Origin: Deltaproteobacteria bacterium
Lineage (GTDB): Bacteria > Desulfobacterota > Desulfuromonadia > Geobacterales > Pseudopelobacteraceae
DNA length: 64,000 nt
Reading direction: 5' to 3'
Assembly (NCBI GenBank): GCA_019162745.1
Contig: JAFLLC010000029.1
Location: forward strand, 124,001-188,000
This document shows positions 45,244 to 51,836 of the stretch, piece after piece (within the stretch, counting starts at the first letter, position 1; every line of letters starts with the position of its first letter). A program made the translations under genes and the position numbers. The notes under the pieces are model-generated. The model searched no databases. It saw only the letters and a program-made list of their open reading frames with translations, and was not told where the DNA came from.

Positions 45244-45273
45244 GGGTTCAGCTTAGGCTGGTCCCTTTTTTTT
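45244..45273 (+). terminator. Terminator between convergent genes
   Basis: GGGttCAGC-ttag-GCTGgtCCC followed by T8. Confidence 0.75.
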
Positions 45274-46318
45274 ATATAAACCGTTTACCTGCACATTCCT
45301 CCCAGTGTCTGCGTGGAATCGAAAGAAACAGGTCTGCGATGGCCGGGTCAAATTGAGTCCCCCGATTATTGATGATTTCGGAAGTTACTTTGTCAAAGGG
45401 GAGTGCCTTCCGGTACGGCCGATCGGATGTCATGGCATCCAGCGTGTCAACAACAGAAAAAATACGGGCGCCGATCGGAATCTGTTCCCTTTTGAGCTGT
45501 TTTGGATAGCCTGTGCCATCAAACCGCTCATGGTGACTGAGGATAATCTCGGCTGGCGCCTTTAAAAAGCCTATCTCGGACAAAATGTCATAGCCTACTT
45601 GCGGATGCTTGCGCATTTGGATCCACTCGCCATCATCAAGCTGGCCAGGTTTGAGCAGGATATTATCGGATATACCGATCTTTCCAATATCGTGAAGCAG
45701 CGCTCCTTTTGCCAGATCATGGAGCTGCCTGTCGGCTATTCCGAGCTTCCCCCCCAGAAAAGCCGCAAAGTTCATAACACGTTCCGAATGAGATCCAACT
45801 TCCCTCTCACGTGCATCAAGGGCTCTTACCAGCGCGGTCAGGGTGTTGTCATAGGCGCTGGAGAGTTCCCCCATCGTTTTACGGATCTGGGCGGTCTGTT
45901 CCATGACCTTGTACTCAAGGCTTACCTGATAATTCTTCTTTTCAAGGGCAAGGGCGCGACGTTCGATCAGATTCTTTACGGTCAGAATCACGCGATTAAT
46001 GCCGAACGGCTTGGTTATGTAGTCGTCAGCCCCGAGGTGTACACATTCCATGGCGGTATTCATATCGGAAAGCCCCGTGACCATCAGAACAGCGATATCC
46101 GGGTTAGCTTTCTTCAGGTCGCGCAGCAGTTCAACTCCGCTTCTGCCGGGCATCATTATGTCCGAAATGACGAGGTCTACCGGTTGGCCCTCCAGCAGTG
46201 CAAAAGCTTCATCGACATTGGCCGCCTGATGACAAATATACTCCTCCTGCACCAAGGCGGCAGAAAGTAAATCCCGAATCATCTCTTCATCATCAACAAT
46301 CAGAATATGTTGCTTCAT
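45272..46318 (-). CDS. REC-HD-GYP response regulator (cyclic dinucleotide phosphodiesterase family)
   Basis: REC: ILIVDDEEMIRD, LVISDIMMPGRSG; HD-GYP: LLHDIGKIGI, HHERFDGTGYPKQL; start 46318. Confidence 0.93.
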   Translation of the reverse strand: MKQHILIVDDEEMIRDLLSAALVQEEYICHQAANVDEAFALLEGQPVDLVISDIMMPGRSGVELLRDLKKANPDIAVLMVTGLSDMNTAMECVHLGADDYITKPFGINRVILTVKNLIERRALALEKKNYQVSLEYKVMEQTAQIRKTMGELSSAYDNTLTALVRALDAREREVGSHSERVMNFAAFLGGKLGIADRQLHDLAKGALLHDIGKIGISDNILLKPGQLDDGEWIQMRKHPQVGYDILSEIGFLKAPAEIILSHHERFDGTGYPKQLKREQIPIGARIFSVVDTLDAMTSDRPYRKALPFDKVTSEIINNRGTQFDPAIADLFLSIPRRHWEECAGKRFI

Positions 46319-46576
46319 TCCTTTTTGTCTCCACGTGTTGTTGGTCCACGAATAAACTCTTGCTGCACAAGCCCTGCAAGGTCCTGCAGAAATACTTTCT
46401 TTGTCAGTCGGCAGTAATTTTGCAGACAGCTTTACTCTTCTACCATGCAATTGTCATGTTTTCAAGTGGCATGACCTATGGTATACAACGGATGCGTACG
46501 ATATTCATAGTCCGCCCACTTTCGGCCACTCCGGGGAATCCATGTTCCGCTCTGCTTCTTTGAATAATTGACCGCC

Positions 46577-49000
46577 ATGTCACGCCGCTGGCCGTTCCTG
46601 CTCCCTTTTTTGTTTATGACTGCCGGTATGACCCTGTCTGCTCTCAATGGCTATTTTTTAGATTTGACCTCTGTTCTTGCTGTTTTTACCTGTCTTCTGC
46701 TCGCATCATTTCTGCCTAAACCGGGGATTTTTTCTGCCTGTATTGCCCTGTTTTTCTTTTTCTGGGGCCTGTTTGCTCTGCAACCCTGGTTATCTCCGGA
46801 GACAGCTCCAAATTCCGTCAGTTTAAAAAACTCCGATAGCCCCATAACAATCGAAGGAGTCCTTTCAACACGCCCTTCAGTTGCTCCGGAAGGAAGCCGC
46901 GTGACCGTTCAGGTCGAACGCATATTCAGCGGGAATCGGTCCGAAACGGCGTCCGGTTTATTATTGCTGTATGTCAGTGAGGGGGATGTCTCTCTGACCC
47001 GCGGAGACCGGATCCGCTTTATCTCCCGTGTTTCTGTGCCGCGTCTGCTTGGCCTGCCGGGTGAATTCAATTATCCCCGCTATCTTGCCTTTCAGGGAAT
47101 ATCAGCAACCGGACGTGTACCCTCCCAAGCCGATATTGTCCTTATTCGCGCCGCTGCAGTGGAATCCTGGCAACGTATAATTGACCAGACGGCGCAAAGT
47201 CTTGGTAACGCTATTCGTGGCGCGGTTCCTGACGTAAATGTTTCTTCTGTCTTGACAGCGCTGCTTATAGGCGATCAACGGAGGATTCCACAGGATCTGG
47301 CAAATGCATATACCAAGGCTGGAGTAAACCATATCCTGTCAATATCCGGGTTTCATGTCGGTATAATTGCTGCCTTCATAACGGTTATGCTTGTATGGCT
47401 GCTGACCCGTTTTGAATATATTGCGCTGTGCTGGAATGTGCGCCGGATTGCACTGCTGATCGCCGTTCCGGCAATGGTGGCGTACCTGCTCTTAACCGGT
47501 AATGCTCCGGCAACGGCGCGTTCGGTGATTATGCTGACTATTTTTGCCGCAGCACTTTTCGCGGAGCGGGAGCGAGACTCAATCAATACACTGCTGTTTG
47601 CAGCGTTTTTTCTGGTGGCGATCAATCCGCCAACTCTTTTTGATGTCTCCTTTCAACTCTCATTTATTTCGCTGTGGGGGATACTTATTGCCGTTCCGTT
47701 GATCATGGAGCGTACCGCAACCGTCTGTTCTCCCTTGCTGCGCAGTATGATCCAGTTTATGGCTGTATCTGTTGCCGCATCGTGTATAACCCTTCTTCCG
47801 GTTCTGTTTATTTTCAAGGTGGCATCTCTTAACGGAATTCTGACCAATTTCCTGATTGTGCCGCTGTTGGGTTACGGTGCTGTTCTAACCGGATTTATTG
47901 CTCTTCCCCTGGTTGTTCTTTTCCCTTCCTCTGCTTTTCTTCTGCTCTGGCCGGCAGCGACACTGGTTGCTGTTTCGAACCGGTTTGTCATGTGGTGTAC
48001 CTCCCTTCCGGTATTTAATTTTCACGGTATCACCGGTTGGGACATGTTCTTTTTTCTGTTCTTCATGACCTGTATGACTTTTTTGAGGGGCAAGGTTCTG
48101 CTTCGGGTTTCAAGTCTGCTGATTCCGCTCTTTGCAATTATTTTGCATCTTTACGCTGCAAACGCCACTGATGGCCGACTGCACATTACGATGCTCAGTG
48201 TCGGCCAGGCTGAATCCTTGCTGGTGCGACTTCCGGATGGCTCGACTCTGCTCGTGGATGGAGGCGGGTATCTGCATGATATCGGCAACGATTTCGGTCA
48301 GCGTATGCTGGCACCCGCGCTGGGTGCGTTGCACGTCGGGCGGGTTGACAGGATGATAGCGACGCATGAACACCCCGATCATAGCGGCGGACTTCCGTAT
48401 ATCATTAAAAATTTCCCGGTTGGTGAGTTCTGGAGCATCAAAAATGTAACAGCCGAAATCAGCAGCGAGCTGATCAAAAAAAAGATGGCACAACGTACGC
48501 TTGCTGCCGGGGATGTTATTACGCTCCCCGGTCCTGTCACCGTCACGTTCCTTTCTCCGGCAAGATCTCTGCAGACAATAGCGGAGATCGATGAATCGAG
48601 TGCAAATGAACAATCGCTCGTATTCCGTCTCAGTTATGGTGCCTTCAGCATGATCTTTTGCGCCGATGCCGGTTTTGAGGCTGAACAGGTGATGCTTGCC
48701 GGCCCTGATGAGTTGCAATCTACGGTTCTTAAGGTCGGGCATCATGGCAGCCGCTACTCAACGTCTGAGGAGTTTCTGAAACGGGTCAATCCGGAAGTGG
48801 CGCTGATTTCTGCCGGCGCCGGGAACCGCTTTGGACTGCCATCGACGCGAACGGTTGATCTGCTGAGATCAAAAGGAATTCCCACCTATCGCACTGATCG
48901 TGATGGAACTATTGAACTTGTTACCGATGGAGTCAGCTGGTCTGTTTCAACCCCCTACAGATCCGCCGGAAATATTTTGCCGTTTGACTCCGTACAGTGA
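46577..49000 (+). CDS. comEC: DNA internalization-related competence protein ComEC/Rec2
   Basis: DUF4131-like N-term, competence TM domain (NHILSISGFHVGIIAAFI), C-term metallo-beta-lactamase (THEHPDHSGGLP, LKVGHHGSRYSTSEEFL). Confidence 0.92.
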   Translation: MSRRWPFLLPFLFMTAGMTLSALNGYFLDLTSVLAVFTCLLLASFLPKPGIFSACIALFFFFWGLFALQPWLSPETAPNSVSLKNSDSPITIEGVLSTRPSVAPEGSRVTVQVERIFSGNRSETASGLLLLYVSEGDVSLTRGDRIRFISRVSVPRLLGLPGEFNYPRYLAFQGISATGRVPSQADIVLIRAAAVESWQRIIDQTAQSLGNAIRGAVPDVNVSSVLTALLIGDQRRIPQDLANAYTKAGVNHILSISGFHVGIIAAFITVMLVWLLTRFEYIALCWNVRRIALLIAVPAMVAYLLLTGNAPATARSVIMLTIFAAALFAERERDSINTLLFAAFFLVAINPPTLFDVSFQLSFISLWGILIAVPLIMERTATVCSPLLRSMIQFMAVSVAASCITLLPVLFIFKVASLNGILTNFLIVPLLGYGAVLTGFIALPLVVLFPSSAFLLLWPAATLVAVSNRFVMWCTSLPVFNFHGITGWDMFFFLFFMTCMTFLRGKVLLRVSSLLIPLFAIILHLYAANATDGRLHITMLSVGQAESLLVRLPDGSTLLVDGGGYLHDIGNDFGQRMLAPALGALHVGRVDRMIATHEHPDHSGGLPYIIKNFPVGEFWSIKNVTAEISSELIKKKMAQRTLAAGDVITLPGPVTVTFLSPARSLQTIAEIDESSANEQSLVFRLSYGAFSMIFCADAGFEAEQVMLAGPDELQSTVLKVGHHGSRYSTSEEFLKRVNPEVALISAGAGNRFGLPSTRTVDLLRSKGIPTYRTDRDGTIELVTDGVSWSVSTPYRSAGNILPFDSVQ

Positions 49001-49056: not shown

Positions 49057-50421
49057 ATGGATACGATCCTGTTAGTTGAAGATGATCGTTTTTTTCGGGA
49101 AATGTTCTCCAACCTGCTGCAAGCCGAAGGGTATCAGGTTGAAACAGCATCCTGCGGGAATGACGGGCTTGAAATGCTTGCCAAAGGGCAGTATTCGCTT
49201 GTTATTACCGATCTGGTCATGCCTGATATCAGTGGCCTTGAGGTCCTTTCACGGGTGCGTGAAAGCCACCCGACGGTCGATGTCATCATGGTCACCGGCA
49301 ATGCCAATCTTGAGTCTGCTATTTTTGCCCTGAAACATGGTGCCCGTGACTACCTGATAAAGCCGGTTAATCCGGATGAGTTAAAACATTCCGTTGCCCA
49401 GTGTATCCAGCAGCGCCGTCTCCTCGATGAAAATGACGAGCTGAAAAACATGCTTTCACTGTTCCGCGCAAGTCAGGTTATTGCCGGCTGTCTTGACAGA
49501 GAACACCTTTACTACTTGCTTGTTGAAACTATTGCCCGCGAAGCCGGACTCAGCCGTGCCCTCGGGTTTTTCATGGCTGAAGGAGTTTTGGAGCTTAAAA
49601 TAACAAAGGGGATTTCCACCGCAGCAGGTAAATGTCTTTTGGAAGAGATTCACGCCCGGCTTGCCGCATTGCCAGCGGCAGAGTTTTCAATCCGGCATCT
49701 GCACCTTTCACCAGCGTCTGCCCAGGAAGGGTTCACCGAAGCCTTCCTGATCCCGGTGGGATCTCATGCTGAACTGTTCGGCGCGGTTGTGCTTCTGAAT
49801 AACCCTTCCAGCGCGCTTCCTGATAGTGAGAAATATAGAAAGAATATACTGTTTTTGATAGAACAGTCACTGCGAGCCTTTGAAAATGCCGAAACTTTTG
49901 CCAAAGCAAAAGATCTGTCGTTTATTGACGATGTCAGCGGCCTCTATAACCATCGCTACCTGGATATTGCTCTTGAGCGCGAAATGAAGCGGGTTGAGCG
50001 ATATGCCTCGCATCTTGCGGTGCTTTTCATCGACGTCGATTCGTTCAAGCAGGTAAACGATACTCATGGACATCTGGTCGGAAGTCGGGTTCTGGCGGAA
50101 TTCGGCGCACTGATCAAAAAAGCGGTCCGTGATGTTGATATTGTCATTCGTTACGGTGGCGATGAATATACCGCCATACTGGTGGAAACATCCTGTGACA
50201 AGGCCGAACTGGTTGCTGAACGTATCCGGAGGCAGGTTGAGGTACATCATTTTCAGGGTTCCGGGGGGCAGGCCATACATTTGACCTGCAGTATCGGTTT
50301 TGCCTGCTGTCCTGATGATACCGCTTCCAAGGATGCACTGCTTGAAATGGCCGACAATGCCATGTATGCCGGCAAAGCATCGGGTAAGAACTGTGTTCGG
50401 CGTGTAACTCGCTGTGACTGA
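49057..50421 (+). CDS. REC-(GAF-like)-GGDEF response regulator; candidate Hypr-type cGAMP synthase (GacA-like)
   Basis: REC: ILLVEDDRFFREMF, ITDLVMPDISG; GGDEF: FIDVDSFKQVNDTHGHLVGSRVLAEF, RYGGDEY; Ser replaces Asp in GHxxGD. Confidence 0.9.
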   Translation: MDTILLVEDDRFFREMFSNLLQAEGYQVETASCGNDGLEMLAKGQYSLVITDLVMPDISGLEVLSRVRESHPTVDVIMVTGNANLESAIFALKHGARDYLIKPVNPDELKHSVAQCIQQRRLLDENDELKNMLSLFRASQVIAGCLDREHLYYLLVETIAREAGLSRALGFFMAEGVLELKITKGISTAAGKCLLEEIHARLAALPAAEFSIRHLHLSPASAQEGFTEAFLIPVGSHAELFGAVVLLNNPSSALPDSEKYRKNILFLIEQSLRAFENAETFAKAKDLSFIDDVSGLYNHRYLDIALEREMKRVERYASHLAVLFIDVDSFKQVNDTHGHLVGSRVLAEFGALIKKAVRDVDIVIRYGGDEYTAILVETSCDKAELVAERIRRQVEVHHFQGSGGQAIHLTCSIGFACCPDDTASKDALLEMADNAMYAGKASGKNCVRRVTRCD

Positions 50422-50579: not shown

Positions 50580-51836
50580 GTGGCTCTAACAGCAGTCAAA
50601 GGTTTTAATGATATTCTCCCGGATGAATCCGGGCGCTGGCAGTATATTGAACAGACGGCCCGAAGGGTTTTTGAGCTGAACGGTTTTGGTGAGATCCGGG
50701 TTCCGGTTCTGGAAAAAACCGAGCTATTTTGCCGCTCGATCGGTGATGCAACCGATATCGTCGAAAAGGAGATGTACACCTTCACCGACAAGGGTGAAAA
50801 CAGCGTCACGCTTCGACCGGAAGGGACAGCCGGAGTCATGCGCGCCTTCATCGAACATAAAATGTATGCACAGGATCCGATCGCAAAGCTGTACTATATG
50901 GGGCCGATGTTCCGTTATGAACGCCCTCAAAAAGGACGCTACCGTCAGTTTCATCAGATCGGCGCCGAAATCACCGGTGTAAACGATCCGCTGGCTGACG
51001 CTCAGGTACTGAACATGCTGACTTCCTTCTTTCGTGAAATCGGCTTGACCGAGCCGACGCTGCAGATAAACTCGCTCGGTTGCCCGGAGTGCCGTCCCGC
51101 GTACCGCAACGCTTTGCGGTGTTTTCTGGAAGAGCGGATGGAGCATCTCTGCGAAGATTGCAAGCGGCGTTTTGACACCAATCCGCTTCGCACACTTGAC
51201 TGCAAGGCGTCGGGCTGCATTGAGGCGACATCCGGGGCTCCGTCAGTACTGGAACATCTCTGCAGCGGCTGCGATGATCATTTCAGCTCTGTACGCCGCT
51301 ATCTCGATCTTTCGTCCACACCTTACAGTATCAACTCCCGCATGGTACGAGGACTCGATTACTACACCCGCACGACCTTTGAGATGGTTACCGGATTGCT
51401 CGGTTCGCAATCTGCCGTTGCTGCGGGGGGGCGCTATGATGGTCTAATATCGCAGCTCGGTGGACCGGCTATTCCAGGAATCGGTTTTGCAATGGGGCTT
51501 GAGCGGGTTGCGCTGCTGCTCGGCAGCCAGGAGTTTGCGACTCTCCCTGACCTGTTTATTGCCACGATGGGGGGAGGGGAGCGTGATGTCGCCTTCCGCC
51601 TGATGGATGGTCTGATAAAGTCCGGAGTTCGCGCCGAAATGGATTACGAAGGAAAAAGCCTGAAGAGTCAGATGCGCCGGGCCGACAAGCTTCGGGCGCG
51701 CTATAGCGTTGTAATCGGTGGAAATGAAGTTGATTCCGGACGAGCCTCCTTCAAGCGGATGGCTGACGGTATCCAGGCAGATACTGAGCTGACGGTCGGC
51801 GCGATACAACTGTTGATCGGGAAGCCGGAGCAGTGA
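50580..51836 (+). CDS. hisS: Histidyl-tRNA synthetase
   Basis: Class [60 protein letters not shown]. Confidence 0.96.

Follow-up and report, generated by a model that had tools for sequence, protein, structure and literature searches.

A GacA-type Hypr GGDEF protein, very probably a cGAMP synthase, from an uncultured genus whose genome also carries GEMM-Ib riboswitches

The plus-strand open reading frame at positions 49057..50421 of the window, the 64-kb stretch of DNA analysed here, encodes a 454-residue protein with a REC / GAF-like / GGDEF layout, and the question raised by this locus is which cyclic dinucleotide the protein makes. The Pfam and NCBIfam models both label it a diguanylate cyclase, as foreseen by the initial annotation, which held that such a plain label would miss a Hypr-type enzyme carrying serine in place of the selectivity aspartate. 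The reading favoured here, with a probability of about 0.92, is that the gene is a gacA ortholog whose product makes cGAMP that is read out by GEMM-Ib riboswitches.

Focusing on the protein itself, the receiver domain (residues 4–113, 49066..49395; Pfam PF00072) contains the phospho-acceptor Asp52 (49210..49212), assigned by residue alignment and also present as D52 in GSU1658 (PMC6456294), and the GGDEF domain occupies residues 289–445 (49921..50391; Pfam PF00990). The region between them, around residues 147–283 (49495..49905), is without a Pfam match, and its GAF-like character is inferred from the predicted secondary structure. In the structure predicted from an 18-sequence alignment (mean pLDDT 82, pTM 0.47), the REC domain is followed by a long helix, the GAF-like α/β domain, a poorly predicted hinge (residues 284–298) and the GGDEF domain; given the pTM of 0.47, the placement of the domains relative to one another is unreliable. 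A structure search with this model returned PleD, WspR-type enzymes and the Geobacter GGDEF structure 6D9M.

The motif FKQVNDTHGHLVGSRVLAEF is present in the translation, and Ser343, encoded by AGT at 50083..50085, lies within it exactly as first reported. The best match among all solved structures in a HMMER sequence search was 6D9M (E = 7.5e-61), a T4 lysozyme fusion of the G. metallireducens GacA GGDEF domain (PMC6456294); the two GGDEF domains share 101 of 164 residues (62%) in a gapless HMMER alignment, in which Ser343 falls on the active-site serine of 6D9M. In the corresponding alignment with PleD, Ser343 falls on residue 344, which is aspartate in PleD and is the counterpart of the selectivity serine in GacA (GSU1658 S347; S348 in GmGacA) and in Bd0367 (PMC9140294). 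The equivalence previously proposed from motif comparison is thus upheld, and it was the alignment with GacA and PleD that had been set beforehand as a possible refutation; Ser343 stayed on D344, and a misplaced motif is ruled out by both alignments. The window protein departs from canonical diguanylate cyclases such as PleD and WspR, which have Asp at 344, and its Ser343 with GGDEY agrees with the Hypr type, which is defined by Ser or Thr at this position and, alongside Ser, by GGDE[F/Y] rather than GGEEF.

The remaining residues to which roles have been assigned in GacA are matched as well. By residue alignment, Asn334 (50056..50058) corresponds to Asn339 of GmGacA, the sugar-edge guanine contact, GGDEY (residues 367–371, 50155..50169) supplies the Asp required alongside Ser, and Arg389 (50221..50223) corresponds by position to the I-site Arg393 of GacA (PMC6456294). 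The retained RxxD of the I-site, RDVD, is found at residues 358–361 (50128..50139). Both the GAF-like middle domain and the Asp, not Glu, in GG-D-EY are parts of the GacA signature that the initial annotation had left unmentioned and that hold here, the former on the predicted structure. Neither the metal-binding Asp nor Asn334 nor the catalytic Glu is altered, and all three are invariant among the orthologs.

The combination of serine with GGDE is of particular weight in the published Goldilocks model of substrate selection, according to which Ser is compatible with GGDE only and not with GGEE because the base shifts towards the serine (PMC6456294). Among 80 relatives fetched by patterns that left residue 343 free, and so without selection on it, GGDE is carried by all 62 proteins with Ser and GGEE by 17 of the 18 with Asp; the window protein, with Ser343 and GGDEY, obeys the same rule. 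Hypr domains make up 0.17% of GGDEF domains (PMC9140294), and only one other GGDEF domain in the host genome has Ser at the selectivity position. Many Ser/GGDEF Hypr-type domains were also encountered beyond the Geobacter relatives (L032–L079), in Acidobacteria, Nitrospirota, Anaeromyxobacter and other metagenome-assembled genomes; these were fetched by pattern search and are mostly acidobacterial.

The gene was followed through 39 genomes of the same order, comprising the host genome and 38 relatives from eight genera. An ortholog with E below 1e-80 was found in 34 of them, and in all 34 residue 343 was readable and proved to be Ser, accompanied by GGDE[F/Y]; chance or a sequencing error as the origin of Ser343 is ruled out by this fixation. 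The upstream comEC-like gene (46568..49000, +) and the downstream hisS-like gene (50580..51836, +) are conserved neighbours: of 18 syntenic loci of the order, nearly all retain the arrangement comEC–gacA–hisS, down to 49% identity and among them the locus of a named isolate, Pelotalea chapellei DSM 13688 (51% identity). At two of the 18 loci comEC was not seen, one of these loci beginning inside gacA. Taken together with the domain layout and the close relation to GacA, these observations make it very likely that the window gene is orthologous to Geobacter gacA. A REC-HD-GYP protein encoded at 45272..46450 (−) is a neighbour kept mainly within the genus and is possibly a cyclic dinucleotide phosphodiesterase. 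A role for it as a dedicated cGAMP phosphodiesterase is unsupported, because it is absent or unseen at several syntenic loci and because the genome contains nine HD_5-domain matches.

Twelve matches to the c-di-GMP-I (GEMM-I) family lie above the cut-off in the host genome, and nine of them have in common a AAUACUAAACC-type sequence instead of AAaGGCAAAcc; this places an A at the equivalent of Vc2 G20, and P2 has a C/U-G/G start. The correspondence of the model column to Vc2 position 20 is our own reading of the alignment, and on this reading the nine are GEMM-Ib riboswitches of the cGAMP type. Published work places cGAMP selectivity in GEMM-I at the G20A position, puts A14 of the 4YAZ structure within the binding pocket, and describes selectivity in pilM as guided by the equivalent of Cd1 G11. 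Only part of the candidates was scored in the first pass of the search, and a profile built from the nine riboswitches re-found the same nine in the genome. All nine sit on contigs other than that of the window; no riboswitch was found within the window by Rfam search, and neither a cis riboswitch nor a clear σ70 promoter was found 5′ of gacA. The genes 3′ of the GEMM-Ib riboswitches encode PilM, PilN, PilO and a PilQ-type secretin, a protein with nine CXXCH motifs (a nine-haem cytochrome), an L,D-transpeptidase with a SPOR domain, and fibronectin/Ig-type surface proteins; this set resembles the targets reported for GEMM-Ib in Geobacter, among them cytochromes, transpeptidases and pilM (PMC6456294, PMC9262584). 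The other three matches keep G at the specificity position (L119:2637-2729, L119:4062-4155 and L118:1562-1655) and are c-di-GMP-like; two of these three are an unusual GGU..GGACAC variant, and precede a gene for a GH26 glycosidase and one for an Ig-repeat surface protein.

These results bear on two explanations in which the protein would not be a cGAMP synthase. It could be an ordinary diguanylate cyclase with an incidental Ser343, making mainly c-di-GMP in the cell, as its family label implies; c-di-GMP synthesis is not wholly lost in Hypr enzymes, and GSU3350 remained a diguanylate cyclase when its Asp was changed to Ser (PMC6456294). However, the 62% gapless identity to the domain of a proven cGAMP synthase, the fixation of Ser among the orthologs, its coupling to GGDE and the GEMM-Ib riboswitches in the genome make this explanation very improbable. 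Still less credible is a catalytically dead GGDEF domain retained as a c-di-GMP-binding receptor or regulator: the published mutants combining Ser with GGEEF were inactive (PMC6456294), but the window protein carries GGDEY, not GGEEF, and its catalytic and metal-binding residues are preserved as described above. The window protein is thus very probably a cGAMP synthase, and the proposed GacA-type Hypr assignment is favoured by the alignments, the residue signature, the neighbourhood, the relatives and the nine riboswitches. Since the published Hypr enzymes also yield some c-di-GMP and c-di-AMP, the term cGAMP synthase denotes here the main cellular product and not the sole one.

A different matter is whether GacA would be the principal source of cGAMP. 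The host genome also encodes a HAMP protein (G000:C58:18580-19896) that resembles GSU1937 in combining the selectivity Ser with GGDDF; GSU1937 contributes cGAMP in G. sulfurreducens (PMC8835794). Such a GSU1937-like gene is present in 28 of the 39 genomes, with Ser in 28 of 28 copies; given this second synthase, cGAMP may under some conditions come mainly from a gene other than gacA. Of the two G. sulfurreducens enzymes, GSU1937 is dominant during growth on Fe(III) citrate and GacA on fumarate (PMC8835794). Strong GEMM-Ib matches occur in 34 of the 39 genomes, not counting two marginal ones (E above 1e-5), and all 34 of these genomes carry gacA and/or the GSU1937-like synthase; the two genomes that lack both have no strong GEMM-Ib match (Fisher p = 0.013, with relatedness ignored). 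The presence of GEMM-Ib tracks the GSU1937-like gene somewhat more closely than gacA, and it is conceivable, if on balance doubtful, that the window protein makes cGAMP but that most of the cGAMP in this organism comes from the GSU1937-like protein. Against this stand the wider occurrence of gacA (34 versus 28 of the 39 genomes) and six genomes with GEMM-Ib in which no Ser-type synthase other than gacA was found. Three further genomes of the host's genus (G008, G020 and G022, at L171, L172 and L168; fragmented assemblies of 510–850 contigs) keep a Ser-type gacA with no strong GEMM-Ib match, and the GSU1937-like gene was not found in them either. The enzyme is therefore not strictly tied to the riboswitch, and cGAMP in these three may act via another receptor.

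In the host genome, G017 and G014, the HAMP-GGDDF gene is the second gene 3′ of one or more GEMM-Ib riboswitches on the same strand (L128:1903-5400, equivalent to G000:C58:16402-19896; L202, G017:C51; L208, G014:C59). A lipoprotein gene and the GGDDF gene are separated by 208 bases. Because of this position, a positive feedback loop can be proposed in which two cGAMP synthases act in series in the genus, GacA starting the signal and the HAMP-GGDDF enzyme following once its gene is switched on by cGAMP, with some receptor of another kind where there is no strong GEMM-Ib. We regard this proposal as speculative and rather unlikely; if it is true, cGAMP could raise its own synthesis via the HAMP-GGDDF enzyme. 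A general rule placing the second synthase under riboswitch control was rejected, the arrangement being found in only three of 13 genomes examined.

Beyond the observed residues, orthology, riboswitches and riboswitch neighbours, the mechanism of the favoured GacA reading draws on published GacA work, from which the catalytic reaction and its product, the regulation and the direction of switching would be carried over. The protein would dimerise with one purine nucleoside triphosphate per GGDEF domain, Ser343, in place of Asp, would hydrogen-bond the Watson–Crick edge of either guanine or adenine, and ATP and GTP would be joined to give 3′,3′-cGAMP, with some c-di-GMP and c-di-AMP. Binding of c-di-GMP at the I-site (RDVD and Arg389) would restrain the enzyme, and cGAMP would turn on the pilus, surface-protein, cell-wall-enzyme and multihaem-cytochrome genes via the nine GEMM-Ib riboswitches.

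Among known systems, GacA (GSU1658 in G. sulfurreducens; Gmet_1914, PDB 6D9M, in G. metallireducens) is the closest in domain layout, selectivity Ser, GGDE[F/Y], D52, the RxxD and R393-equivalent arginine of the I-site, and a genome in which GEMM-Ib riboswitches precede genes for pili, cytochromes and transpeptidases; the window protein differs in its GGDEF domain, which is 62% identical, in having GGDEY instead of GGDEF, and in coming from a different, uncultured genus. GSU1937, the second Hypr enzyme of G. sulfurreducens, shares the selectivity Ser and has its homologue in the same genome, but is a membrane HAMP protein with GGDDF, unlike the soluble, GGDEY-bearing REC protein of the window. 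Bd0367 (DgcA) of Bdellovibrio bacteriovorus is likewise a Hypr GGDEF protein, with S214 at the PleD D344 position (PMC9140294), but belongs to another lineage and regulates predation and gliding, and is not known to have a GEMM-Ib regulon. PleD shares the GGDEF fold, the I-site and REC input, but has Asp344, GGEEF and two REC-like domains with no GAF-like domain, and makes only c-di-GMP.

In conclusion, GacA, its structure and its riboswitch regulon were already published, and this study adds a new member and a wider range. The annotation of the window protein is corrected from plain diguanylate cyclase to GacA-type, and the perfect coupling of Ser to GGDE in 62 relatives provides independent support for the published substrate-selection model. 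Within one order, GacA and the GEMM-Ib regulon extend over at least eight genera and are not confined to the small number of cultured Geobacter species investigated before.
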